A stretch of DNA of 40,582 nt. Origin: a virus. The stretch covers positions 1 to 40,582 of the IMG/VR virus record IMGVR_UViG_3300042375_000813; one strand, 5' to 3'. Positions 7,335 to 36,843 of the stretch are shown here, one piece after another (within the stretch, counting starts at the first letter, position 1; the number at the start of each line of letters is the position of its first letter). The translations under genes were made by a program, and so were the position numbers. The notes under the pieces were generated by a model that ran no database searches, was not told the DNA's origin, and saw only the letters and a list, made by a program, of their open reading frames with translations.

Positions 7335-8330
7335 ATGAAAAACTTTGTTAAATCTGCATTGCAGGATGGCGGCGCCATCAAGCCATTAATTGTTCCAGCA
7401 AACCTCACGAAGGGTACTGGACTCATGAATCCGTCCATCTTCAATGATGGCGGTAAACTCAAGGTTGTAATTCGCCATGTGAATTACACCTTCTATCATT
7501 CCGAGAACAAACTGTTCTTGCATCCTTGGGGTCCGCTGACCTATCTACACCCCGAGAACGACCAGCATCTCCGTACAGAAAACTATTACGGCGAACTGGA
7601 TAATGCTGTTAATCTTAACCTCAATCGAGTCACAAAGATTGATATGAGTTTTGGTGATACCTATGAGCCCAAATGGGAATTCGTGGGTCTTGAAGATGCT
7701 CGCCTTGTTCGTTGGGACAACAAACTGTTCATCACTGGCGTCCGCCGTGATACGACCACGAATGGTCAGGGTCGCATGGAACTCTCTGAAATTCAGGTTA
7801 ATGGTGATACTGTAAAGGAAGTATCTCGCTTCCGTATTCCAACTCCAATTGATCCAAAATCATATTGCGAAAAGAACTGGATGCCAATCCTGGATAAGCC
7901 GTATCACTTCATTAAATGGTGTGGTCCCACGGAGATTGTAAGAGCAATTCCAGAAACACAGGGTTGCGAACAAGTATTGCTTGGTCAAAACCATGCTGAT
8001 CTTCGTCGCGATCTTCGTGGCGGAACACAGGCAATTAAGATTGGTAACCATTATGTTGCAATCACTCACGAAGTGGACCTCTTTAAGTCCGATGTGGGTC
8101 GCAAGGACGCAGTGTATCATCACCGTTGGGTAATGTGGGATGAGAACTGGAACATTGTAAAATACTCCAAAGAGTTCTTCTTCCTTGATGCACAGGTTGA
8201 ATTTGCAATCGGTATGTGCCAATCAAATGATGATGTAATTATTACCTTTGGTTTCCAGGACAATGCCGCATATGTGCTTCGTTGCCCAATTTCTACAGTT
8301 ATGAGTTTTATTGAGGAGAACAACAAATGA
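7335..8330 (+). CDS. Five-bladed beta-propeller glycosidase/phosphorylase-like protein (GH43/GH130-type fold)
   Basis: 331 residues. The motif GLEDARLV (residues 118-125) followed by WDNKLFITGVRRD fits the conserved 'G.EDAR/PRL....G.yy' blade signature of GH130/GH32/GH43-type five-bladed propellers. Other blade-like strands are LMNPSIFNDGGKLKVVIRHV (30-50), WMPILDKPYHFIKWCGPTE (about 184-202), and GGTQAIKIGNHYVAITHEVD. No catalytic residues can be assigned with certainty. Such proteins cut, phosphorolyse or bind glycans; here it may trim or process a sugar that the neighbouring enzymes handle. The last four bases overlap the next start (ATGA), so it is translationally coupled to the methyltransferase and then the glycosyltransferase. 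Substrate is unknown. Confidence 0.6.
   Translation: MKNFVKSALQDGGAIKPLIVPANLTKGTGLMNPSIFNDGGKLKVVIRHVNYTFYHSENKLFLHPWGPLTYLHPENDQHLRTENYYGELDNAVNLNLNRVTKIDMSFGDTYEPKWEFVGLEDARLVRWDNKLFITGVRRDTTTNGQGRMELSEIQVNGDTVKEVSRFRIPTPIDPKSYCEKNWMPILDKPYHFIKWCGPTEIVRAIPETQGCEQVLLGQNHADLRRDLRGGTQAIKIGNHYVAITHEVDLFKSDVGRKDAVYHHRWVMWDENWNIVKYSKEFFFLDAQVEFAIGMCQSNDDVIITFGFQDNAAYVLRCPISTVMSFIEENNK
8313..8318 (+). promoter_or_regulatory. Shine-Dalgarno sequence (GAGGAG) of the methyltransferase gene
   Basis: GAGGAG, 8 bases before the ATG at 8327 and inside the end of the upstream gene. It is the only strong Shine-Dalgarno site I see in front of any gene in the window, and it supports this start at the ATGA junction. 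Confidence 0.7.
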
Positions 8331-9514
8331 ATCGTACCACAATCATCAATTATCTAATTGCCAAGTCCAAAGCCAAATCCTATCTCGAGATTGGTGTCTG
8401 GAACGGACACAACTTTGACAATATTGTTTGCGCTAAACGTGTTGGTGTTGACCCGTCTCCGGAGAAATTAAAGAATCCGGAACTCTGTAAGGTCATGACT
8501 TCGGATGAATTCTTTGCTCAGAATACCGAGAAGTTTGATGTGATCTTTATTGATGGGCTTCATCATGCGGATCAGGTCTTCAAGGACCTCACGAATGCCG
8601 CAAAGTGTCTGAATCCGAATGGTTACATTGTGTGCCATGATATGAATCCATTGACTCAACGGGCTCAGGAGATTCCATATTCTGGACAGGGTATGTGGAA
8701 CGGAGATTGCTGGAAAGCTCTTGTTAATTTTCGTAAAACAAATTATCTGTATGATGTGAACGTCGTCGATGTCGACCATGGTTGCGGTATCCTTAGTCTC
8801 AAGAAAAATCTTACCGATATTGAATTCCTTGAGGTCAAGGAAGAACTCACCTATGAGAACCTTGAGAAGAACCGCAAGAAGTGGTTGAATCTGACCGACC
8901 GCTACGCTTGGGCACAAGGCATTAGTTTTGATGAGATGATGAATGCCTACGTTGGTGATCCAACCAATGAATATAATAACTACGTCCTTGCTCTTTGGTA
9001 TGACAGTTGCGGCCAGACGGCTTCTGCCATCTCCTATTATATTCGTGCAGCAGAACGCAGTGACATTCCATTGTATCAATACGAGTGTCTCATTCGTGCA
9101 GCACTCTGCTTCCAGCAGCAGGGTACCCGCGGTCTTTCGGTTCGTGGATTGCTGCAACGTGCAATCTCAATTATGCCAAAACGTCCTGAGGCTTATTTCC
9201 TCCTAGCTCGTTATCACGAACGCGAAAGCACCGTTGAGAGCTGGGTGAACTGTTATACCTATGCAGCAATGGCGCTTGAGGTCTGTGATTTTAATTGTGG
9301 CAATCTCCGCACGTGGGTTGAATATCCTGGTTACTATGGTATGCTTTTCGAGAAGGCTGTCAGCGCATGGTGGGTTGGCCTCTGTGAAGATTCGAAGAAT
9401 ATGTTCATCAATCTTTATAAGAACTATCCACTCGATGCAACTCATAAAGGTTCCGTTGTTAATAACCTTAAATTCATGAAGGCGCAATCTGTACTTCTAC
9501 CTTCTGATGTATGA
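8327..9514 (+). CDS. Class I SAM-dependent methyltransferase with C-terminal helical-repeat domain
   Basis: 395 residues. The N-terminal domain (about 1-165) is a Rossmann methyltransferase of the Methyltransf_24 type. It has motif I YLEIGVWNGHNF (19-30), the acidic ribose-binding strand VGVDPSP (39-45), FDVIFIDGLHHADQVFKDL (70-88) and NGYIVCHDMNP (98-108). Residues about 195-385 form amphipathic helix pairs resembling TPR repeats (NYVLALWYDSCGQTASAISY, then RPEAYFLLARYHERES), as found in bacterial glycan-biosynthesis proteins. It probably methylates a sugar or glycan precursor, with the repeats holding a partner or substrate. It overlaps both neighbours by ATGA and has its own Shine-Dalgarno site. 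Methyl acceptor unknown; the methyltransferase call is firm. Confidence 0.75.
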   Translation: MNRTTIINYLIAKSKAKSYLEIGVWNGHNFDNIVCAKRVGVDPSPEKLKNPELCKVMTSDEFFAQNTEKFDVIFIDGLHHADQVFKDLTNAAKCLNPNGYIVCHDMNPLTQRAQEIPYSGQGMWNGDCWKALVNFRKTNYLYDVNVVDVDHGCGILSLKKNLTDIEFLEVKEELTYENLEKNRKKWLNLTDRYAWAQGISFDEMMNAYVGDPTNEYNNYVLALWYDSCGQTASAISYYIRAAERSDIPLYQYECLIRAALCFQQQGTRGLSVRGLLQRAISIMPKRPEAYFLLARYHERESTVESWVNCYTYAAMALEVCDFNCGNLRTWVEYPGYYGMLFEKAVSAWWVGLCEDSKNMFINLYKNYPLDATHKGSVVNNLKFMKAQSVLLPSDV

Positions 9515-11058
9515 GCAAATTAAATAATTTTCCTCCAGTCTATTGGCTCACTCTTGCTGATCAACCAGAAAGGCATAAGTGCATTACAGACCAATTTGCA
9601 AAGTATGGTATTACGGATCATACTCGCATTAATGGTTTTGATGGTCGAGTAACAGATTATCGTAGGAAGGGAGATGTCGTCACTGGCATCTACTTTGACA
9701 TTATGAAGTCGACAGATATTGCGTGTGCAATGGGTCATCTCGCAATGATCAAGCAGTGGTATGATACTTCGACGAGTGATGTTGCCATATTCCTGGAAGA
9801 CGATGTGAACCTTGAGAACTGTGAGAACTGGAGTTTCTCATGGTCCGAGTTCTTTGCCTCTCTTCCGCCTGATTGGAAAAATGTTCAGCTTGCTCAGATT
9901 CGTTCCGATGAAATTAGCGACATTGGCTTTCGTCCACGCATTGCTTCAGATTGGTGCGTCACTGCATATCTCATTCAACGCTCATATGCAAAACAGTTGA
10001 TTGATGATTATTTTGTTGATGGTCGTTTCCGTCTTATTGTTCAGAATGATAAAGAGTGCCAACCAATCGTAGAGAACCTTGTATATTTCCCAGGAGAACC
10101 AAAGTCCTACAGTATCCCACTTTTCACTGAAAAGAATACGTTCTCTTCAACCTTCTATAGCAATGACACGAAGAAGGTCAAGGAGTACAATGCCCTTTCT
10201 GAAAAGTATGTGACAACTTGGTGGCAACAGAATGGTCCCACGGCATCATTGGAATCCATCATGCATAAACCCGTGCCAATGCCCATGATTCCTATGATTG
10301 GAACTGCGGTCGTCACGAATCCAAAATGGGTGAAACGCCTTGTTGAGAGTGTTGATTTTCCTGTCAAGGAATTCTGCATCATCAACAATAACGGACGCGG
10401 AGAGATTGATGCGGAGCTGGATGCTATTGCTGCAACTCCTCATCCATATATTCGTAAGATTAAAGTGGTTCATATGCCTGCAAATCTAGGTGTTCCGGGC
10501 TCATGGAATCTTATGATCAAGTCGTATCTCAAGGCTCCGTACTGGATTATCGTGAATGACGATGTTTCCTTTGGTCGCGGCTTCCTTGCTGAAATGTATG
10601 CGGCAACAATGCGGGATCCATCACTCGGTATCATCCATGGCTTTGAAGGCGACCATAATGTCGGTAGCTGGGACCTCTTCCTTCTACGCGATCATATTGT
10701 TGCTGATTATGGTCTTTTTGACGAGAATCTGTATCCCGCATATAATGAGGATGCGGATTACTTCCTGCGGTTCATCCATAGTCCAATCCGTAAGATGATG
10801 AATCTACGTAGTGATTACTATCATGGAGAGGGCAAGAAGAACGAATATCATACCCATGGAAGCCAGACAAGTAAGAGCGATCCAGTACTCAAGGAGAAAC
10901 TAGACCGCGTAAATCTCATGAACATGGACTACATGACTCATAAATGGGGTAAGGAATGGAGATGGTGTTCTCCGAGCAAGCTTCCATTCGAGAATCGGCC
11001 GATTAGCTATACTTCCTACGACCTTCGGTTCATTCGCCAAAAGTACCTGGGCTTTTAA
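9511..11058 (+). CDS. Double glycosyltransferase: GT25-like domain fused to GT2-like domain
   Basis: 515 residues with two transferase domains. The N-terminal half (about 1-215) has the GT25 hallmarks: PVYWLTLADQPERHKCITDQ (9-28), the RINGFDGR strand (39-46), DIACAMGHLAMIKQWYD (69-85), and the acidic VAIFLEDDV (91-99), where the DD would bind metal and nucleotide sugar. GT25 includes LPS galactosyltransferases and the animal collagen galactosyltransferases. The C-terminal half (about 258-470) is GT2-like: MIGTAVVTNPKWVKRLVES, HMPANLGVPGSWNLMIKSYL, the metal-binding WIIVNDDVSFGRGF (NDD at 349-351) and YPAYNEDADYFLRF. It overlaps the methyltransferase by ATGA and is last in the cassette. It could modify host surface glycan, a virion sugar or the collagen-like fibres around it; the sequence alone does not decide. 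Confidence 0.75.
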   Translation: MSKLNNFPPVYWLTLADQPERHKCITDQFAKYGITDHTRINGFDGRVTDYRRKGDVVTGIYFDIMKSTDIACAMGHLAMIKQWYDTSTSDVAIFLEDDVNLENCENWSFSWSEFFASLPPDWKNVQLAQIRSDEISDIGFRPRIASDWCVTAYLIQRSYAKQLIDDYFVDGRFRLIVQNDKECQPIVENLVYFPGEPKSYSIPLFTEKNTFSSTFYSNDTKKVKEYNALSEKYVTTWWQQNGPTASLESIMHKPVPMPMIPMIGTAVVTNPKWVKRLVESVDFPVKEFCIINNNGRGEIDAELDAIAATPHPYIRKIKVVHMPANLGVPGSWNLMIKSYLKAPYWIIVNDDVSFGRGFLAEMYAATMRDPSLGIIHGFEGDHNVGSWDLFLLRDHIVADYGLFDENLYPAYNEDADYFLRFIHSPIRKMMNLRSDYYHGEGKKNEYHTHGSQTSKSDPVLKEKLDRVNLMNMDYMTHKWGKEWRWCSPSKLPFENRPISYTSYDLRFIRQKYLGF

Positions 11059-18726: not shown

Positions 18727-21700
18727 ATGTCACGCGGATCCAATCACGTCTTAGCAAGAACAAGTATTCCCGTAACAGAGGTTAGCTTTACCCCCGTAAC
18801 ATATACGGGAGGTACGCTGACGGCTGGAGTTGCAAGTGTGACTCCATCCAATGCTACGCACTCTACGCCAACATCTACGCAGGTAAATGCTGGTACGCAT
18901 AGTACTTCAATTACTGGTACTGGAGCCTTTAATAAAACTGTTTCTGCAAATTGGACCATCAATCCAGCATCACTGGTTTCAGTTGGTTTTGCTGCGCAGA
19001 CCTATACAGGAAGTGCACTTACCCCAGTCGTTAATTCAGTAAATCCTGCTGCTGCAACGTATTCAACATCTGCAATTGCAAAAACAAATGCTGGTACATA
19101 TACGGATAGTGGTATCACAGGAACAACAAATTATACCGGGACAGTCACAGGCTCATTCGTCGTAAATCGTGCATCAATGGTTTCAGTTGGTTTTGCTGCG
19201 CAAACCTATACCGGAAGTCCATTGACTCCTGCAGTGAATGCCGTGAATCCAGCTGCTGCAACTTACACAACAAGTGCAGTTCCAAAAACAAATGCTGGAA
19301 CTTATTCGGACAGTTCAGTGACTGGAACCACGAATTATCAAGGTACAGTCAATGGTAGTTTTGTGGTGAATCCAGCATCAATGGTTTCAGTTGGGTTTGC
19401 AGCGCAGACCTATACTGGAAGTGCATTGACTCCTGTGGTGAATTCTGTAAGCCCAGCAGCCGCGACGTATACTACATCAGCAGTCGCAAAAACAAATGCT
19501 GGTACATATACAGATAGTGGTATTACGGGAACAACCAATTATACTGGCACAGTGACGGGCTCATTCGTCGTAAATCGTGCTTCGATGGTATCCGTAGGGT
19601 TTGCAGCGCAGACCTATACCGGAAGTTCACTCACTCCTGTTGTCAATGCGGTAAATCCTGCTGCAGCAACGTATACTACATCAGCTGTTGCAAAAACAAA
19701 TGCTGGTACATATACAGACAGTTCCGTCACGGGAACAACAAATTATCAAGGTACAGTCACAGGCTCATTCGTCGTAAATCGTGCATCAATGGTAGGATTT
19801 ACCATCGGTGCTCAAACATATACCGGTTCACCATTGACTCCTGCAGTTGCAAGCGTGAATCCTGCTGCAGCAACGTATTCAACAAGTTTTACAAATCAGA
19901 CGAACGCTGGAACTTATTCAAATTCCATTACTGGAACAACGAACTATCAAGGCACAGTCAATGCTAATTTTGTAGTAAATCCAGCAACAGTGACCGCAAT
20001 CACGTGGAACACCGTAACATACAACGGTGTTTCACAGACTCCATCAACCGCGTCACGTACGCCAGCGGCTGCAACGGGTAATGTTGGAACAGCGCAGACA
20101 AATGCTGGTTCATACACAACAACATTTACTGGAACTGGAAATTATACCGGTAGTCCAACTGCTACATGGACAATTAATCCAGCATCGGTTACATTCTCTT
20201 ATTCGAGCACATCCAAGACGTATAATGGTGCAGCGCAGTCGCCAACAGTGACTCCTTCAAACGGATCCGCGACGTATAGCAATGGCGGAACAACTTCTGC
20301 TACATCTCCTGGATCATATACAATTACATCAACAGCATCAGGAAATTATACCGGTTCTGGATCCTCTGCCTGGACTATTGCGAAAGCAAATCAAGCCTCA
20401 GTCACAGTTTCCGCTGCATCGTCGATGACGTATGGAACCGGTTCTACCTGGTACGGTGGCGGTGGAACTGGTACGGGTCAAATGTATTGGAATGTGCCAG
20501 GTTATATTGGAGACAATGCAGCAACATCTGCAACATTGTCCACTCAATTGAGTGCCAACGCATATTACACGATGCGTTTCTATAAGGCTGGCGATGCAAA
20601 TTATAACCAATCAAATAACGCGGATCAATCTTTCTACGTAAATCCAGCCTCAGTCACATTCTCTTATACAAATACATCATTTAGCTATAATGGTGCAGCG
20701 CAGGGTCCAACAGTGACTCCTTCAAATGGATCAGCCACATACAGTAATGGCGGAACAACTTCTGCCACGAACGCTGGTTCATACACGATCACGTCTTCTG
20801 CAAATGGTAATTATAGCGGTTCTGGATCCTCTTCCTGGAGTATTGCAAAAATAGGTCAGGGCACAGTGTCAATTTCTGGAGCAACAACTGGTACTGTTGG
20901 TAATTCTTATAGCTACACCGCATCTGGTGGTAGTGGCGGTGGTGCTTATGTTTTCGGTAGTTCCGGATCTGGTAGCACAAATCCTAATAGCGTTTACTTT
21001 GGTTCAACTGGTACATTCTACGTTAACGTATATAAAGCTGCAGATACAAATTATAACCAGTCAAATACTGCGACAGCAACAATTGTAATTTCTCCTCCAC
21101 CTCCGCTTGAAGTCACTCTTACCTATAATGGTGGTGGTCAAAACTATACCGTACCTTCCGGTAAAACCTCAGTGACAGTTTACGCATACGGTGCTGGCGG
21201 TGGCGCTGGTATCGGAGTGCCGGGTGGCTATGGCGGTCTAGCTCGCGCAACCTACTCAGTTTCTGGTGGCCAAAACATTTATGCTGAAATCGGCCAGGGC
21301 GGATCTTATTCATACCAAGCGTATGGCGGCGGTGGCGCACCTCACGGCATCGGTGGCGGTGGTGGTGGTCTCACGTATGTCTCGATGCCAGATGGCAGTT
21401 GGCTCAGAGCCGGAGCGGGTGGCGGCTCGGGTAACTCTGGTAATACCGACGGTTATGGCGGCGATGCTGGATATAACGGCGCAGGCGGCGGAGGCGTAGG
21501 TGGATACGCTGAAGGCGGTGGCGGTGGCGGTCATACCGGCGGTGGCGGTGGCGGTGGCTATTCGAATGATGGCGGCAGCGGCGGCAGCGGTGGAAATAAT
21601 TATGGTGGATCTGCAGGATCCGGTGACTATAGCGCAGGATCTGGCGGCAGCGGCTATGGCGGCGGCGGCGGTGGCGCTGGTCATAATGCCACATATCCAT

Positions 21701-21840
21701 TCGGCGCAGGCGGCGGTGGCGGTGGATCATGCTACGTCTCTGGCGGAAGTAATGTTCACGAGGGTGGCGGCGGCGGTGCACCGGGCGAGCCAAACTTTAA
21801 TGCTGGTGCAAACGGTTCAGTCTTATTAGTATTCACGTAA
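18727..21840 (+). CDS. MBG/YDG-type Ig-like repeat protein with glycine-rich tail (1037 aa)
   Basis: A giant adhesin-like protein. Residues about 18-80 form a first MBG-type repeat (VTYTGGTLTAGV, NAGTHSTSITGT). Five repeats of about 68 residues follow (81-419), each with VGFAAQTYTGS..LTP, then NPAAATY, then TNAGTY, GTTNY.GTV and FVVNPAS/RAS. Then come a related repeat (ITWNTVTYNGVSQTP) and two longer pairs (TFSY...YNGAAQ.PTVTPSNG, and YNQSN units) up to about residue 790. MBG and YDG domains are Ig-like repeats of large bacterial surface adhesins. Residues about 795-1037 are glycine-rich (YAYGAGGGAGIGVPGGYGG, then many GGGGG runs), similar in style to 14303-15247. No signal peptide is seen, which fits a virion rather than a secreted protein. 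The stop is 4 bases before the next ATG. Probably a long fibre with a polyglycine tip. Confidence 0.7.
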   Translation: MSRGSNHVLARTSIPVTEVSFTPVTYTGGTLTAGVASVTPSNATHSTPTSTQVNAGTHSTSITGTGAFNKTVSANWTINPASLVSVGFAAQTYTGSALTPVVNSVNPAAATYSTSAIAKTNAGTYTDSGITGTTNYTGTVTGSFVVNRASMVSVGFAAQTYTGSPLTPAVNAVNPAAATYTTSAVPKTNAGTYSDSSVTGTTNYQGTVNGSFVVNPASMVSVGFAAQTYTGSALTPVVNSVSPAAATYTTSAVAKTNAGTYTDSGITGTTNYTGTVTGSFVVNRASMVSVGFAAQTYTGSSLTPVVNAVNPAAATYTTSAVAKTNAGTYTDSSVTGTTNYQGTVTGSFVVNRASMVGFTIGAQTYTGSPLTPAVASVNPAAATYSTSFTNQTNAGTYSNSITGTTNYQGTVNANFVVNPATVTAITWNTVTYNGVSQTPSTASRTPAAATGNVGTAQTNAGSYTTTFTGTGNYTGSPTATWTINPASVTFSYSSTSKTYNGAAQSPTVTPSNGSATYSNGGTTSATSPGSYTITSTASGNYTGSGSSAWTIAKANQASVTVSAASSMTYGTGSTWYGGGGTGTGQMYWNVPGYIGDNAATSATLSTQLSANAYYTMRFYKAGDANYNQSNNADQSFYVNPASVTFSYTNTSFSYNGAAQGPTVTPSNGSATYSNGGTTSATNAGSYTITSSANGNYSGSGSSSWSIAKIGQGTVSISGATTGTVGNSYSYTASGGSGGGAYVFGSSGSGSTNPNSVYFGSTGTFYVNVYKAADTNYNQSNTATATIVISPPPPLEVTLTYNGGGQNYTVPSGKTSVTVYAYGAGGGAGIGVPGGYGGLARATYSVSGGQNIYAEIGQGGSYSYQAYGGGGAPHGIGGGGGGLTYVSMPDGSWLRAGAGGGSGNSGNTDGYGGDAGYNGAGGGGVGGYAEGGGGGGHTGGGGGGGYSNDGGSGGSGGNNYGGSAGSGDYSAGSGGSGYGGGGGGAGHNATYPFGAGGGGGGSCYVSGGSNVHEGGGGGAPGEPNFNAGANGSVLLVFT
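18967..19983 (+). repeat. 204-bp tandem repeats encoding MBG-type domains
   Basis: Repeat boundaries (GCATCA or GCTTCG, the Ala-Ser before MVSVGF) fall at 18967, 19171, 19375, 19579 and 19783, exactly 204 bp apart each time. The fifth unit is 201 bp. Adjacent units differ mostly at synonymous positions. Some non-adjacent units are more alike (TGTVTGSFVVNRAS in units 1 and 3), which suggests shuffling or conversion among units. Confidence 0.9.
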
Positions 21841-30216: not shown

Positions 30217-32148
30217 ATGGCTGTTACACCTATATCAATTGAAACTCAACCTACCAGCAGAACAGTTTCTGTTGGGGGTCTTGCAGCGTTCAACGTAGTT
30301 GCGAGTGGTGGTGGAACTATTACATATCAGTGGAAGAAAGCTGCCGTTGAAATATCCGGCGCAACCGCGCCGGTCTACATTGTAGGATCCGCAGTAACAG
30401 CAGATGCTGGATCGTATACCGTTACGGTTACAAATGAGGCTGGAAGCGTGACTTCCAGCAGCGCTACGTTGACGGTCAATGCACTCACTGCACCCGTCAT
30501 TACTGCACAACCATCGGGGCAGACAGCATATGAAGGAGATTCAGTCACATTTTCAGTTATTGCAACGAGCAATGGCACTTCTCCGACATATCAATGGAAG
30601 AAGAGTAGTAGTACAATTGTAGGAGCAACTTCTCCTCAATACACAATCTCATCAGTTGTTTCTGGAGATGCTGGTAATTATACCGTGGTCATCACGAATA
30701 GTGTTGGATCAACAACTTCAAGTACTGCGGTTCTTGCAACAGCGGCTCTTCCAGCAATTATTCCGGTTGATGATGAATTATTTGGTTCTCAGGGAACTCA
30801 AGGATCAGTCGGCTCTCAAGGAACTCAGGGCATTCAGGGAGTACAAGGCACGCAGGGAACACAAGGATTACAAGGTATTCAAGGTTTTCAGGGAATTCAA
30901 GGCACATTTGGTACACAAGGTAGCCAGGGCCGTCAGGGCATTCAAGGTCTCCAAGGTGTGCAGGGTACGCAGGGCATTCAGGGTTCTCAAGGAACTCAGG
31001 GTACTGTGGGTCTTGCTTTTACGATTGCCAAAATATATGCCTCAGTTGCAGCGCTCGCCGCGGATTCGTCTCCGAGTGGAATCATTGCTGGTCAATTTGC
31101 ATTAATTAATACCTACAACGTAGAAGATCCGGATAACTCTAAATTGTATATTTGGAGCGGAGCAAGTTATATTTACGTTGATGATCTTTCCGGTTCTGCA
31201 GGCATTCAAGGTATTACTGGTTCTCAGGGAACTCAAGGTATTCAAGGTCTTCAAGGAGTCCAAGGTATTCAAGGAATTCAAGGCATAAACGGAGAGTATG
31301 CTGCTATGGGTCTCCAAGGAACTCAAGGTATTCAAGGCCGTCAAGGAATTCAGGGAACATCAGGTTTAACTGGTACGGGCATCCAGGGTGCGCAAGGTGC
31401 TGTTGGATCTAATGGCGCTCAAGGAATTCAGGGTATTACTGGTTCTAACGGTAGTAACGGCACAAACGGCACGAATGGTATTCAAGGCGCTGCTGGTTCT
31501 AACGGCAGTAATGGTGCTCAGGGTACCGCTGGCACAAATGGTAGTAATGGTGCTCAGGGTACCGCTGGCACAAATGGTAGTAATGGTGCTCAGGGTACTG
31601 CAGGCACAAATGGAGCAAGTGTCACGGGCGCTCAAGGTACGGCAGGACAGAACGGTACGAATGGCACAAACGGGACAAATGGTCAAAATGGTGCTCAGGG
31701 CACAGTAGGTCAAAATGGTACGAACGGTACGAATGGCACGAATGGCAGTCCTGGTGCTCAAGGCACGCAGGGCAGTGCAGGTCCCGGAGCCGATCAATCT
31801 TTAAATACAAACAGTTCAGTGACATTTAGTAGTGTTACTGCTGGTGGCTTCAATGCCACATCATCCATTGCATACAAAATGAATGTTACTCCGATCGAAG
31901 ACGCGATCGATTTAATTAAAAATCTGAATGGAGTAATCTACGATAGAAAAGACGGTCACAAGTCTCGGGAACATGGAGTCATTGCTGAAGACGTAGCACG
32001 AGTATTACCAAGCGTGGTGGGATATAAAAATGGAAAGCCAGATTCAATTGACTATTCGCGCTTTACACCAGTTCTAATAGAAGCTATTAAAGCTCTTAGT
32101 GATAAAGTAGATGAGTTGAAGAATGAATTAAAAGCTCTGAAGCCGTAA
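30217..32148 (+). CDS. Ig-domain collagen-like fibre with S74 chaperone, in the wac/fibritin position (643 aa)
   Basis: Two tandem Ig-like domains open the protein: residues about 1-92 (PISIETQPTSRTVSVGG, ITYQWKKAAVEISGA, DAGSYTVTVTNEAG) and about 93-178 (PSGQTAYEGDSVTFSV, TYQWKKSSSTIVGA, DAGNYTVVITNSVG). A collagen-like stalk (about 190-264), module A (265-329), and a second stalk with [12 protein letters not shown] repeats follow. The C-terminal S74 chaperone (about 548-643: SSIAYKMNVTPIEDAIDLIK to HGVIAEDVARVLPSVVG) has the Asp after the Ser replaced but keeps Ser-x4-Lys. The segment before it, GADQSLNTNSSVTFSSVTAG, is paralogous to the end of 1942-3666. In T4, the gene just before gp13 is wac, the collar whisker fibritin, so this may be a neck fibre. 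That is positional inference; sequence similarity to fibritin is not visible. Confidence 0.8.
   Translation: MAVTPISIETQPTSRTVSVGGLAAFNVVASGGGTITYQWKKAAVEISGATAPVYIVGSAVTADAGSYTVTVTNEAGSVTSSSATLTVNALTAPVITAQPSGQTAYEGDSVTFSVIATSNGTSPTYQWKKSSSTIVGATSPQYTISSVVSGDAGNYTVVITNSVGSTTSSTAVLATAALPAIIPVDDELFGSQGTQGSVGSQGTQGIQGVQGTQGTQGLQGIQGFQGIQGTFGTQGSQGRQGIQGLQGVQGTQGIQGSQGTQGTVGLAFTIAKIYASVAALAADSSPSGIIAGQFALINTYNVEDPDNSKLYIWSGASYIYVDDLSGSAGIQGITGSQGTQGIQGLQGVQGIQGIQGINGEYAAMGLQGTQGIQGRQGIQGTSGLTGTGIQGAQGAVGSNGAQGIQGITGSNGSNGTNGTNGIQGAAGSNGSNGAQGTAGTNGSNGAQGTAGTNGSNGAQGTAGTNGASVTGAQGTAGQNGTNGTNGTNGQNGAQGTVGQNGTNGTNGTNGSPGAQGTQGSAGPGADQSLNTNSSVTFSSVTAGGFNATSSIAYKMNVTPIEDAIDLIKNLNGVIYDRKDGHKSREHGVIAEDVARVLPSVVGYKNGKPDSIDYSRFTPVLIEAIKALSDKVDELKNELKALKP
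31009..31203 (+). repeat. Module A, copy 9 (in 30217-32148)
   Basis: 195 bp, [20 protein letters not shown] to DDLSGSAG; one of the more divergent copies. Confidence 0.9.
31522..31593 (+). repeat. Exact tandem 36-bp duplication in fibre stalk
   Basis: Bases 31522-31557 and 31558-31593 are identical (GTAGTNGSNGAQ twice); a diverging third start follows. Very recent in-frame expansion. Confidence 0.95.
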
Positions 32149-32197: not shown

Positions 32198-32947
32198 ATG
32201 GCTGCACCATCATCTAGACAAAATCTCATCGACTACTGTTTGCGTAACCTGGGAGCACCGGTCCTGGAGATTAACGTGGACGACGATCAGGTGAATGACC
32301 GTATCGATGAGGCATTCCAATTCTGGAATGAGTATCATATGGATGCAACCCTCAAAACGTATCGCAAGGTCCAGGTGACACAGCCGATCATTGATAACAA
32401 ATACGTGGATCTTCCAGATAGTTGTCTTTTTGTAACTCGCGTATTCCCTCTCACAAACAACTCATCAAATTCATCTGGAATGTGGTCTGCACGTTACCAA
32501 ATGCATTTGAATGACGTATACGATCTTCAATACGCTGGAGCTTTGGTGAATTACGTTGAGACTCGCCAATTTCTCGAAATGCTGGATATGATTCTGAATG
32601 GTGTTCCTCCGATTCGCTTTAATCGTCACATGAACCGTATGTTTATTGACGTTGATTTTTCACAGCAGCTTTATCTTGGAGATTGGATTATTATTGAGGG
32701 ATACGAGACGATTGATCCTACTGGATTCACAAAGGTCTATAACGATATGTTCCTCAAGAAATATTCAACTGCATTGATCAAACGTCAGTGGGGTCAGAAT
32801 ATGAGCAAGTTTGAAGGCATGCAGCTTCCGGGTGGAGTGACGATGAATGGCATGAAGATTCTTGAGGACGCAAATGCAGAAATTGAAAAGCTTGAGGCGG
32901 ATATGGAACTCAAGTATGCCAAACCGGTCGACTTCCTTATTGGCTAA
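32198..32947 (+). CDS. gp13: Neck protein gp13
   Basis: 249 residues, shorter than T4 gp13 (about 309). Opening RQNLIDYCLRNLGAPVLEIN, DDQVNDRIDEAFQFWNEYHM and YVDLPDSCLFVTRVFPL are typical of gp13 of T4-like marine phages. The middle contains RFNRHMNRMFIDVDFSQQLY and LGDWIIIEGYETIDP; the end is a charged helix (ILEDANAEIEKLEADMELKY). gp13 and gp14 form the neck that closes the filled head and receives the tail. gp14 follows after 3 bases, the T4 order. Transcribed from its own perfect late promoter 8 bases upstream, with no Shine-Dalgarno sequence. The identification rests on sequence style and strict synteny. Confidence 0.9.
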   Translation: MAAPSSRQNLIDYCLRNLGAPVLEINVDDDQVNDRIDEAFQFWNEYHMDATLKTYRKVQVTQPIIDNKYVDLPDSCLFVTRVFPLTNNSSNSSGMWSARYQMHLNDVYDLQYAGALVNYVETRQFLEMLDMILNGVPPIRFNRHMNRMFIDVDFSQQLYLGDWIIIEGYETIDPTGFTKVYNDMFLKKYSTALIKRQWGQNMSKFEGMQLPGGVTMNGMKILEDANAEIEKLEADMELKYAKPVDFLIG

Positions 32948-32950
32948 TAT

Positions 32951-34006
32951 ATGCCCCGCAACGTTTACTTTTCTCAGGGCGCAAAGTCTGAACAGAATCT
33001 TTACGAGGACCTCGTAATAGAGGCTCTGAAGATTTATGGGCATGAAATGTATTATATGCCCCGCAGCATGATTTCTCGGGATATGATTCTGGATGAAGAT
33101 ATTGAATCTAAATTCAGTGAGGCGTACATGATTGAAATGTACCTTGAAAATGTGGATGGCTTTGATGGAGATGGTACATTCTTTAGTAAGTTTGGTCTTG
33201 AGATTCGTGACTCTGCAACATTTGTGGTTTCGAAACGCCAATGGGAAAAGCTAGTGGGTCTCTATAATAATGAGATCGTTTCGGGACGTCCAAATGAAGG
33301 TGATCTATTGTTCTTCCCACTCACTCGTTCTTTCTTTGAGATTAAGTTTGTTGAGCATAAATCTCCATTCTACCAACTCTCAAACGTACCAGTCTACAAG
33401 ATGCGTTGCGAGCTCTTCGAATACTCTGATGAAGCGATCGATACTGGCATTGCAGAAATCGATGTTCTTCAGACTAAGTTTGCAACTGAATACTTCTTTG
33501 CAATTGATAATTCGAATGATATTCCATTTACAATCGGAGAAAAGGTAAAGCAGGTTCTATCTCCTGCAGCTGGAATATATCCTGAGGTTGCCATCTACGG
33601 AAAAGTACTTCGCTTTGATCGTCTTATTCCAACAAATCCAACCAGTGAACTTCGTGTTGCACTAGGTGAGATTACCGCAACGAGCGGTAGCTATAGCGAA
33701 TTCGGAGTAACTGAACACGAATTTGATAAACTCGTGGGACTCACGAGTGGCGCTGAATGGAGCATCACGAAAAAATACGATATCGATACTCAAAGCGAAA
33801 ATCTTACATTCAAGAACAATGCTGAAGGTGCACAAAATTACGAATTTGAAAATGATGCTGCCGGAATCATTGATTTTAGCGAAAACAATCCATTCGGCGA
33901 GGTTGGCGCATCAGTCCCAGCCGTGGTTATAACAAATTCATCTTATCGTGCAGATTCAACGGGAATTTTTGCAGACTCTACAACACTAACAGCCGATACT
34001 CAATAA
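32951..34006 (+). CDS. gp14: Neck protein gp14
   Basis: 351 residues, longer than T4 gp14 (about 256). The conserved part (1-165) is PRNVYFSQGAKSEQNLYEDL, then EALKIYGHEMYYMPRSMISR, ESKFSEAYMIEMYLENVDGF, and RPNEGDLLFFPLTRSFFEIK through FVEHKSPFYQLSNVPVYKMR. The C-terminal ~130 residues have an extra acidic, beta-rich stretch (EGAQNYEFENDAAGIIDFSE). Partner of gp13 in the neck and head-tail joining. It lies 3 bases after gp13 and, unusually, only 1 base before a collagen-like fibre gene instead of before gp15. The C-terminal extension could be an attachment site for that fibre (inference). Confidence 0.9.
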   Translation: MPRNVYFSQGAKSEQNLYEDLVIEALKIYGHEMYYMPRSMISRDMILDEDIESKFSEAYMIEMYLENVDGFDGDGTFFSKFGLEIRDSATFVVSKRQWEKLVGLYNNEIVSGRPNEGDLLFFPLTRSFFEIKFVEHKSPFYQLSNVPVYKMRCELFEYSDEAIDTGIAEIDVLQTKFATEYFFAIDNSNDIPFTIGEKVKQVLSPAAGIYPEVAIYGKVLRFDRLIPTNPTSELRVALGEITATSGSYSEFGVTEHEFDKLVGLTSGAEWSITKKYDIDTQSENLTFKNNAEGAQNYEFENDAAGIIDFSENNPFGEVGASVPAVVITNSSYRADSTGIFADSTTLTADTQ

Positions 34007-34007
34007 C

Positions 34008-36068
34008 ATGGCAAAGCAAACTATTTTAACAGGAACAGTCGCCAACGATAAAACAGGTGACACAATTCGTGCAGCCTTCATAAAGGCCAATGCCAATTTT
34101 ACAGAATTGTATAACCTAGGCGCAGCGCAGGGCGTACAAGGTATACAAGGCATTCAGGGCGTACAAGGTATCACAGGCTCGCAGGGTATTACCGGAGCTC
34201 AGGGTCTGCAAGGCGCTACTGGTTCCGGTTCACAAGGCATTCAAGGTACTGCAGGATTCGTGGGATCTAACGGATCGCAAGGAACTGAAGGATCGCAAGG
34301 CATCCAAGGTACAGAAGGTGCGCAAGGCATCCAAGGTACAGAAGGTTCAGGTACTCAAGGTATCCAAGGTATTGAAGGATCACAAGGAACTCAAGGCACA
34401 GAAGGTTCAGGTACTCAAGGTATCCAAGGTATTGAGGGATCGCAAGGTACTCAGGGCACAGAAGGTTCACAAGGTACTCAGGGCACAGAAGGATCACAAG
34501 GTACTCAGGGTACAGAAGGTATCCAAGGTATTGAGGGATCGCAAGGAACACAAGGTACAGAAGGATCACAAGGAACTCAGGGTACAGAAGGTGCGCAAGG
34601 TATCGAAGGTTCACAAGGAACTCAGGGTACAGAAGGATCACAAGGAACTCAGGGTACAGAAGGTGCGCAAGGTATCCAAGGTATCGAAGGATCACAAGGA
34701 ACACAGGGTATTGAAGGTTCTCAAGGAACTGAGGGTTCGCAAGGTATCCAAGGTATTGAAGGATCACAAGGTATTACTGGTGCACAAGGAACACGCGCAA
34801 CGGAAGATAGATTAATTAATGGCAGTTATGAAGTTATACTTAATGCTACGGGCGAACTCACATTTCCCGAAGGTGCCAATATAACTGATACGGCTACTAC
34901 AATTGTAATTACACCACCCGGAGCAGCTGCTGGACAAAGTTTAGTAATTCGTCCCACATCATCGACATGGTCTGTCACCTCAAGTGGTTATATTGAGTAT
35001 GGCAGTCCAATTACAATCTCAGTCAATCAGCTTTCACAAGGAAGTTATTTTGGAACAGTTAATTATGAAATTAGTGGTACTGGAGTAACCCAACAATCAT
35101 TGGGTCGGGCTCTCACTGGTAATGTGGTTTTCGACGGAACCACAGGACCTATTGCTGAAACGGTCACCTGGACCATACCTGCTAATAGCAGCATCACTGA
35201 ATTTACTTTTACATTAACGACAGTTGATGGTACTCGTTCGACAGATTATCAAACTGAAAATGATCCGGCATTATATTATAATTTTGAATTTAATGCAATG
35301 CCTGAAGGTACCTTTGTTACCGTAACAAACAATAATATCAGTAATTCGGAACACAGTCACGTACATTTAATCTCGGGCAATTCTGTAACAACCGACATCT
35401 ATCTGGGTGATGACGATCAGTTTGTTAAGATTGAAAAGAACGGCGGCGATGTTGTTATCGGCACCAATACAAATACTAAAAATTGGAGATTTAGAACAAG
35501 CGGTAAGGCATCGCTTCCATCTGTAAGTTGGAATTATCTACCGACGACCTTTACAGCTGTTCCCGTGACCTACGGAGAAACAACTTTGACATTCACCGTT
35601 CTTCCAGACAACACGATTGTTGATATGAGTGTTGCCGCGGGGGCGGGAGGATATGGTCCCGATGATTATGATCTAACAATACCCGGAACAACTTTTCCAG
35701 GCGGAGCCACTCCTGCTAACGATATTGTTTTTAATGTTCAAACATTTGAGAGTGCAGGACCCGTTTATTCAACAGATGTAACTAGCACAGTTACTTATGT
35801 TTCCGGCACGCCGCCTCTAAGATATGACAATATTGCCGCGACCGGTGATTTAGGACTAGGCGCGGGTAGTCAACATTGGGTATTTAAAACCAACGGAGCC
35901 TCAGTATATCCAACAGATGGTATTCCGACAACAAGCAAGGGTGTTGCAGGTGATGCGATTGGAAGTGTGGTATTTGGATCAGGATATATCTACTATTGCT
36001 TCGACACTTATTCGGATGGCACCAATGATATTTGGAAACGTATTGCGTGGTCCAATGATACTTGGTAA
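34008..36068 (+). CDS. Collagen-like fibre inserted between gp14 and gp15 (686 aa)
   Basis: N-terminal cap (1-40) ILTGTVANDKTGDTIRAAFI then KANANFTELYNLG, a common phage-fibre start of the 'NDKTGDT.R.AF.K.N.NF.ELY' type and unlike the other caps here. The stalk (about 41-264) is collagen-like but with many Glu in the Y position ([13 protein letters not shown]), a GFVGSN signature, and two GS register breaks (34344-34349, 34404-34409). The C-terminal ~420 residues are a beta-rich head (FPEGANITDTATTIVITPPG, then GNVVFDGTTGPIAETVTWTI and VVIGTNTNTKNWRFRTSGKA), ending YYCFDTYSDGTNDIWKRIAW. No module A or B and no S74 chaperone. It starts 1 base after gp14 and has no promoter of its own, so it is made with the neck genes; probably a collar or neck fibre. 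Confidence 0.8.
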   Translation: MAKQTILTGTVANDKTGDTIRAAFIKANANFTELYNLGAAQGVQGIQGIQGVQGITGSQGITGAQGLQGATGSGSQGIQGTAGFVGSNGSQGTEGSQGIQGTEGAQGIQGTEGSGTQGIQGIEGSQGTQGTEGSGTQGIQGIEGSQGTQGTEGSQGTQGTEGSQGTQGTEGIQGIEGSQGTQGTEGSQGTQGTEGAQGIEGSQGTQGTEGSQGTQGTEGAQGIQGIEGSQGTQGIEGSQGTEGSQGIQGIEGSQGITGAQGTRATEDRLINGSYEVILNATGELTFPEGANITDTATTIVITPPGAAAGQSLVIRPTSSTWSVTSSGYIEYGSPITISVNQLSQGSYFGTVNYEISGTGVTQQSLGRALTGNVVFDGTTGPIAETVTWTIPANSSITEFTFTLTTVDGTRSTDYQTENDPALYYNFEFNAMPEGTFVTVTNNNISNSEHSHVHLISGNSVTTDIYLGDDDQFVKIEKNGGDVVIGTNTNTKNWRFRTSGKASLPSVSWNYLPTTFTAVPVTYGETTLTFTVLPDNTIVDMSVAAGAGGYGPDDYDLTIPGTTFPGGATPANDIVFNVQTFESAGPVYSTDVTSTVTYVSGTPPLRYDNIAATGDLGLGAGSQHWVFKTNGASVYPTDGIPTTSKGVAGDAIGSVVFGSGYIYYCFDTYSDGTNDIWKRIAWSNDTW
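34350..34469 (+). repeat. 60-bp tandem repeat containing GS interruption
   Basis: 34350-34409 and 34410-34469 encode the same 20 residues ([20 protein letters not shown]) with a few synonymous differences. Each unit runs into the next through the Gly-Ser interruption that breaks the triplet register. Confidence 0.8.
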
Positions 36069-36075
36069 TTAATCT

Positions 36076-36843
36076 ATGACAAGCGGACACTTTTATCACG
36101 CTCATATCCGTAGGATCGTAACGGTCTTCGGAACGATATTTAACAATATCAATATCATCCGCAAGGATCAAACGGGTAAAGTTATCCATTCGATCCGGGT
36201 TCCACTTGCGTATGGACCCAAGGCAAAGTTCCTTCAGCGTCTCGATGAGCAGAAAGATCTTCAGGGCAATAAAATTGCAATGAAGTTACCCCGCATGTCA
36301 TTTGAAATTACCACTATGGTATATGATGCAACTACTAAGTTGAATCGTAATAATGTCGTAACCTCAATGGATGCTGGCGATACATTGACCAAACATATTG
36401 TACGCACTTTTGCTCCGTATAGAATGAACTTCCAACTTTCTATTATGGCAAAGAATCAGGATGACGCACTTCAGGTGATGGAACAGATTCTTCCTTATTT
36501 TCAACCTGAATATACCGTTACGGTAAAAGAACTAGATTCGTCCAATGTGACGACGGATGTTCCATTTGTTCTCACCAATGTGACGATGGAAGATACGTAT
36601 GAAGGTGACTTTACGACACGCAGAGCAATCATCTATACCCTGGATTTCGAAGCCCGTATTCGTTTCTATGGACCTATCTCTCGTAGATCTATTATTAAGT
36701 ACACTGACGTAGATTTTATCACGAATGATTTTGAAAAAACCGACGTTAATATCCATACAACATTGGGATCCATCGAAGATACTCCTGAGGACTATACGGT
36801 TATACAAACGAAAACGGATTTTGGGTTTAATAACCCTGGGTAA
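36076..36843 (+). CDS. gp15: Tail completion / sheath-stabilising protein gp15
   Basis: 255 residues, close to T4 gp15 (272). Sequence signs are GHFYHAHIRRIVTVFGTIFN, NIIRKDQTGKVIHSIRVPLA, YGPKAKFLQRLDEQKDL and KLPRMSFEITTMVYDATTKL. Later come TFAPYRMNFQLSIMAKNQDD and ALQVMEQILPYFQPEYTVTV, all characteristic of the gp15 family. In T4, gp15 forms a hexameric ring at the top of the tail, ends sheath polymerisation and joins the tail to the gp13-gp14 neck. Here the gene is 7 bases downstream of the inserted fibre and 15 bases before gp16. No promoter of its own is seen, so it depends on readthrough from the gp13 promoter. Confidence 0.92.
   Translation: MTSGHFYHAHIRRIVTVFGTIFNNINIIRKDQTGKVIHSIRVPLAYGPKAKFLQRLDEQKDLQGNKIAMKLPRMSFEITTMVYDATTKLNRNNVVTSMDAGDTLTKHIVRTFAPYRMNFQLSIMAKNQDDALQVMEQILPYFQPEYTVTVKELDSSNVTTDVPFVLTNVTMEDTYEGDFTTRRAIIYTLDFEARIRFYGPISRRSIIKYTDVDFITNDFEKTDVNIHTTLGSIEDTPEDYTVIQTKTDFGFNNPG

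Follow-up and report, generated by a model that had tools for sequence, protein, structure and literature searches.

A collagen-like fibre gene within the neck block

In T4 the neck genes 13, 14 and 15 are contiguous, a point on which an earlier sequence-only reading of this DNA was correct. In the T4-like, cyanophage-like myovirus contig analysed here (the window, 40,582 bases), a gene for a 686-aa collagen-like fibre lies between gp14 and gp15, which raises the question of where on the virion this fibre is held. The order on the + strand is gp13 (head-tail adaptor, 249 aa, 32198..32947; PHROG 211, E 7.5e-41), gp14 (neck hexamer or head-closure protein, 351 aa, 32951..34006; Pfam PF11649, T4_neck-protein, E 9.6e-37; PHROG 460/679), the fibre (34008..36068; an open reading frame matching Pfam Collagen, E 9.9e-31) and gp15 (tail terminator or sheath stabiliser, 36076..36843; Pfam PF16724, T4-gp15_tss, E 2.5e-73). 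Downstream of gp15 are, in order, a small ORF, a terminase-like gene and a sheath-like gene. The window gp14 matched T4 gp14 in the PDB (9mkb, E 2.6e-29), and the predicted structure of a gp14 homologue matched T4 gp14 in Foldseek (E 6.9e-9).

The fibre gene begins one base after gp14, as had been noticed from the letters: the last base of the gp14 stop codon is 34006, and the fibre opens with an ATG at 34008. It also appears to have no promoter of its own, since no promoter-like site above chance was found between the two genes. In all, 14 promoter-like sites were found against 18.2 expected in shuffles, none of them on the + strand just 5' of the fibre; the nearest + strand site lies within the fibre gene itself.

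The fibre protein has three parts, all encoded on the + strand. Residues 1-36 (MAKQTILTGTVANDKTGDTIRAAFIKANANFTELYN; 34008..34115) form an N-terminal module, residues 38-263 (34119..34796) a collagen-like shaft in which Gly-X-Y runs were mapped (Pfam Collagen), and residues 264-686 (34797..36065) a beta-rich C-terminal region with a cap ending in IWKRIAWSNDTW. This cap occurs once among the fibre genes of the window, in agreement with the claim that it is unlike those of the other fibres, and the N-terminal module (NDKTGDTIR) is likewise present in one copy. The Gly-X-Y shaft is shared with phage collagen-like tail fibres (PHROG 5073 and 819) and with the other collagen fibres of the window, which have different N-termini (for example, MAL.FP.SPS..) and, in several cases, S74 chaperone caps. 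Part of the distal region is common (approximately 40% identity) to neck fibres of the distant L042 clade. An AF2 model of the C-terminal part had a pLDDT of 38.8, too low to give a usable fold.

In locus L001, whose gp14 is 100% identical to that of the window, the fibre (L001:9058-11613) is 851 rather than 686 aa long. It carries non-collagen inserts in the shaft and has a tip 92-94% identical to the window's, so that the two differ by recent remodelling of the shaft.

Only the end of the gp14 extension co-occurs with the fibre

The window gp14 is indeed long (351 aa against 256 aa in T4), and the sequence-only reading had taken its whole C-terminal extension as evidence for a fibre built onto the neck. 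Among viral contigs gp14 falls mainly into three length classes, of approximately 247-257, 290-327 and 339-359 aa. The second class differs from the first by an added middle region (approximately residues 176-316 in the window; 33476..33898, + strand), which is shared with fibreless relatives. In L009, for example, gp14 has 61% identity to that of the window and contains the middle region, yet gp15 is directly adjacent and there is no fibre gene. Because it is present in fibreless relatives, the middle part is no evidence for a link to the fibre, and the extension as a whole was rejected as the fibre mount; the same reading had named just such an occurrence in fibreless phages as evidence against its proposal.

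What the third class has beyond the second is a tail following a conserved NPFG(D/E). Tail length is bimodal, at either 2-7 or 35-44 residues. In the window the tail comprises residues 317-351 (33899..34003, + strand) and is of the kind found only where a gene carrying the fibre's N-terminal module follows. It is predicted to be disordered (pLDDT approximately 32-38 in a homologue). AF2 modelling of a read-through gp14-module chain (44 sequences) recovered the gp14 fold but left the tail disordered, with docking not recovered.

The co-occurrence search that had been proposed was carried out on 152 distinct gp14s from viral contigs with readable downstream DNA. Thirty-seven of these are long-tailed, and in 37/37 a module gene follows within approximately 21 bases; among the 115 without a long tail, a module gene comes next in 0/115, even with a loose pattern included. 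The downstream gene starts in a way that resembles the window fibre (MAKQ..NDGTGD.LR..K.N.NF.E.Y). L204, L321, L324, L326 and L327 seemed to be exceptions until their genes were read and variant modules were found (DDGRGD in L204, NTGTGD/NDGEGD in the other four), and apparent gp14-gp15 gaps in L018, L022 and L027 are in fact insertions inside gp15. Beyond the constant module, the remainder of the gene ranges from 67 aa (L015, which has little besides the module) to 1290 aa. As the body varies while the module stays, it is the module, not the fibre, that the tail tracks.

On a tree of the gp14 core, tail and module gene change jointly four times and never separately. Just one of these joint changes is forced by well-supported branches, so phylogenetic independence is limited and the strength of the result lies in the association plus its replicates. 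In one exception, L284, a module-like gene in which the invariant Arg is replaced follows a tail-less gp14. Within the window the module and the tail motif stand side by side, with one copy of each. A neck of this type is also present in contigs of 140 and 168 kb, where a single module was found, likewise at the neck. No isolate among the records examined belongs to the lineages with the gp14-tail neck fibre. A literature search, with subscription papers mostly outside its reach, yielded no account of the NDGTGD motif and none of the pairing of tail and module.

The fibre N-terminus resembles a baseplate attachment module

The sequence of the fibre N-terminus identifies it as an attachment module of the gp9/gp10 type used at the baseplate. 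The first 46 residues of the window fibre matched T4 gp10 in a phmmer search of the PDB (E 3.6e-4), and a profile of modules matched T4 gp9, itself outside the profile (E 6.3e-6). The Pfam family T4_gp9_10_N (PF07880; cut-off 25) is passed by the modules of L014 (26.3) and L042 (25.5), with L002 below the threshold, and was not reported in a Pfam search of the window fibre at E 0.1. The neck gene of L014 (175 aa) aligned over 99% of its length, with 30% identity, to the N-terminal part of a cyanophage gp9/gp10-type baseplate connector. Among isolate records with the module (60 of 1745 listed), functionally annotated matches are baseplate (gp9/gp10) or tail genes and the others are unnamed. Given this homology, the neck fibre would be built on a baseplate-type plug.

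A triple heptad at the gp14 C-terminus

The last 21 residues of the window gp14 read SYRADST-GIFADST-TLTADTQ (33941..34003, + strand), three heptads that form a candidate dock for one fibre trimer. A triple-heptad dock is defined here by three hydrophobic-Asp motifs, spaced 7 residues apart, that end the product of the gene next upstream of a module gene; the gp14 tail is a strict match and the sole one in the window. Related tails read IRLDNTK-LRFDENT-ATWDAV (L042), MDSTTVL-MDSTEVT-MDEDS (L204) and VNSTSIT-VDSVLIT-SDK (L021), and that of L015 has 7-6 spacing. When the residues of each tail were shuffled, the strict pattern arose at a rate of 0.02-0.6%; 5/11 gp14/gp15 tail families have it, against 0.019 expected. 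A relaxed pattern is present in 10/11 families but also in 2.5-39% of shuffles. A permissive repeat count (3-6 per tail) was uninformative, and only the 7-7 spaced core was used.

The same association was seen in a scan that began from the module and not from gp14. The strict triple heptad was found in the last 45 residues of 17/71 genes immediately upstream of a module gene, compared with 5/677 other C-termini from the same loci (Fisher p 1.1e-14). These upstream genes encode proteins of 199-961 aa, together with open frames of 55-69 aa. In L230, L240, L249, L277 and L287 frames of the latter size, directly before the module gene, end in a triple heptad (for example, FTADTTLETADTTQFTADATEY); they are possibly minimal dock adaptors in other phage types.

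Six inspected loci have the order gp13-gp14-gp15-module. The tail is then on gp15 in four of them (L253, L279, L285 and L289), and the remaining two (L298 and L304) have no evident gp15 tail; the gp15 of the window, which stands beyond the fibre gene, is without a triple-heptad tail. A follow-up of gp15 gave 12 tailed proteins, all with a module gene, and 40 with neither, the exceptions being three cases of a module gene after a tail-less gp15 (L298, L304 and L412). With L284, four neck loci break the pairing of tail and module, which is thus a strong rule and not an absolute one.

Outside the neck, a triple heptad lies within a gp7-like giant protein upstream of a gp9-type gene in syn9, MbCM1, Syn30 (where the giant structural protein is annotated 'similar to gp7'), ACG-2014b and ACG-2014d, and in Melnitz and P-RSM6 it forms the extreme C-terminus of the protein encoded immediately upstream of the module, although some of the carriers listed were picked by the same pattern. 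Within the last 90 residues of Melnitz protein 161 (L308:12263-14953) are two stretches that resemble triple heptads, NEFDGGTKFDSTNATFDE and TRFSSDNVEFDDNVRTFDSA, perhaps docks for two fibres. In T4-type gp7 a conserved stretch, VRWSADDVRFSSQDITF, recognised by eye, matches the heptad pattern. It appears, at the corresponding place, as RWS.(D/E)VRFS...ITF in gp7 of T4, Ac42, RB43, RB49 and Thanatos-2, and KVP40 and D485 have a longer version of it. From this resemblance we infer that it may be the site of gp9 or gp10 in T4.

Comparison with known neck and baseplate fibres

Fibritin (gpwac) of T4 is, like the proposed fibre, a trimeric neck fibre encoded beside the neck-gene block, with a variable distal part and a conserved short N-terminus for attachment (PMC3797505, PMC12270204). 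It is held by domain III of gp13 (residues approximately 190-239; PMC12270204), whereas this domain is missing from gp13 of the window and of all aligned relatives (MAFFT; gap at T4 residues approximately 190-236) and the mount proposed here is gp14. The two fibres differ further in that the fibritin N-terminus is not a gp9/gp10 module, in that wac lies between gp12 and gp13 and the window gene between gp14 and gp15, and in that fibritin is a segmented coiled coil with a foldon in place of a Gly-X-Y shaft. Pfam and PHROG searches of the window fibre gave no fibritin family match.

The position of wac is taken in the window by another collagen-like fibre gene (30217-32148), directly before gp13. 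Its product begins with a pair of Ig-like domains and ends in an S74 chaperone (Pfam), and may be whisker-like or capsid-bound.

At the T4 baseplate, the N-terminal domain of gp9 docks on monomeric gp7 and swivels, which provides the long fibre with its pivot (PMC3004832). The N-terminal domain of gp9/gp10 (Pfam PF07880) and its partner gp7 resemble the window pair in that the module is homologous and the gp7 stretch shares the heptad pattern. In contrast, the window pair belongs to the neck block, the carrier is gp14 and the putative dock is a free C-terminus; in place of the gp9/gp10 body there is a collagen fibre.

The neck fibre proposed here has a parallel in Anabaena phage A-1(L), a cyanophage myovirus with fibres at its neck that are attached by a trimeric protein (gp82-gp81-gp80, carried on gp5; PMC10966104). 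In A-1(L) there are five fibres, each a trimer on three subunits of a pentadecamer, built as a bead chain of several proteins with a pilus-like fold in the attachment domain (PMC10966104), whereas the neck of the window is of the T4 type. Phage neck fibres and gp9/gp10 attachment are already known; the arrangement here, probably a neck fibre with a gp14 dock, is unusual.

Further genes of the fibre cluster may be mentioned. At 8327-11058 are a methyltransferase-like gene and a gene whose product combines glycosyltransferase domains of families 25 and 2. Family 25 includes collagen galactosyltransferases, so modification of the window's collagen-like fibres is conceivable. A 1037-aa protein encoded at 18727-21840 has repeated MBG-like domains (Pfam MBG_3).

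Where the fibre is held

A protein with a gp9/gp10-type N-terminus might simply be a baseplate or tail fibre whose gene happens to lie in the neck operon, the gp14 tail having some other role. The homology of the module, and the baseplate gp9/gp10 annotation of module genes in sampled isolates where a function is given (60 of 1745 listed), fit this view; since the N-terminus is a baseplate module, location at the baseplate would be the default reading if the gp14 tail were absent. This explanation is nevertheless unlikely, as it accounts neither for a tail found only together with a module gene (37/37 versus 0/115) nor for its presence on gp15 instead when the module gene follows gp15. Because gp14 ends in a tail that matches the module and that fibreless relatives lack, the neck is most likely where the fibre is plugged in.

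Two explanations in which the tail has no role in mounting fare worse. Ordinary insertion of a gene between gp14 and gp15, with coincidental variation in gp14 length, has precedents: the junction is occupied in L012 by an endonuclease-like ORF and in several loci by a small DFGFTAVDE gene. Those insertions leave gp14 tail-less, however, whereas across the gp14 set tail and module gene go together without exception (37/0 vs 0/115), and chance of this kind is barely credible. A hitch-hiking cassette is a little less improbable, though still very doubtful: a C-terminal dock together with the fibre gene next to it makes up a single short stretch of DNA, comparable stretches stand behind other genes, and the tail could be a functionless relic of the 3' end of a donor dock gene, left on gp14 by recombination. 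Against a relic, the hydrophobic-Asp heptads persist in diverged gp14s (approximately 40-65% identity to the window) although the preceding spacer varies, and no gp14 in the set keeps the tail after losing the module gene.

As to the inserted genes themselves, the ORF of L012 (L012:2421-2996), in a tail-less relative, was recognised by eye as homing-endonuclease-like. The small gene (approximately 80-90 aa, ..DFGFTAVDEDELEAVQK..) separates gp14 from gp15 in many tail-less phages, including loci L152, L154, L155, L161, L163, L165, L168, L172, L185 and L191.

A proposed dock and plug

The explanation that we favour, and consider probable from the sequences compared, is a trimeric neck fibre with a collagen shaft and a gp9/gp10-type plug, gripped by the triple-heptad tail of gp14, with up to six per virion. 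The earlier proposal of a fibre mounted on the neck by way of gp14 is strongly supported by the co-occurrence (37/37 vs 0/115, with the gp15 replicate), but only as regards the last 35 residues (317-351), most of the extension being no evidence for it. In T4 the C-terminal region of gp14 (178-256) binds gp15 in the virion (PMC12270204), so the C-terminus of the window gp14 is expected at the gp14/gp15 junction, where a tail predicted to be disordered would be free to hold a fibre.

In such an arrangement the first 36 or so residues of each chain of the trimer would form the plug, and one gp14 tail (its last 21 or so residues) would wrap the base of one trimer, one heptad per subunit. The triple heptad would then be a single-chain answer to a three-fold partner, in a 1:3 ratio, and the gp14 hexamer could present up to six fibres at the head-tail junction. 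This mount may stand in for that of T4, in which domain III of gp13 holds fibritin, and the fibres may serve in host adsorption or fibre control. Being end to end, dock and plug genes could be translated in step and could move and change as one small cassette.

A wider reading, to which we give somewhat better than even chances, is a general and transferable mounting code, in which a single-chain triple heptad of approximately 21 residues grips a trimeric gp9/gp10-type module. The dock would have been added to many virion proteins (gp7, gp7-like giants, gp14, gp15 and very small proteins), by which fibres come to stand at the baseplate, on the neck or in other places; the fibre gene would usually be the next one downstream.

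The results point to a neck fibre system made of baseplate-type parts in phages that lack the T4 whisker mount, and dock plus plug suggests an exchangeable handle. The match in gp7 is a specific prediction for deposited T4 structures. If confirmed, the dock-and-plug code would be a rule, readable from sequence, for the placement of fibres, which is otherwise known only from cryo-EM.
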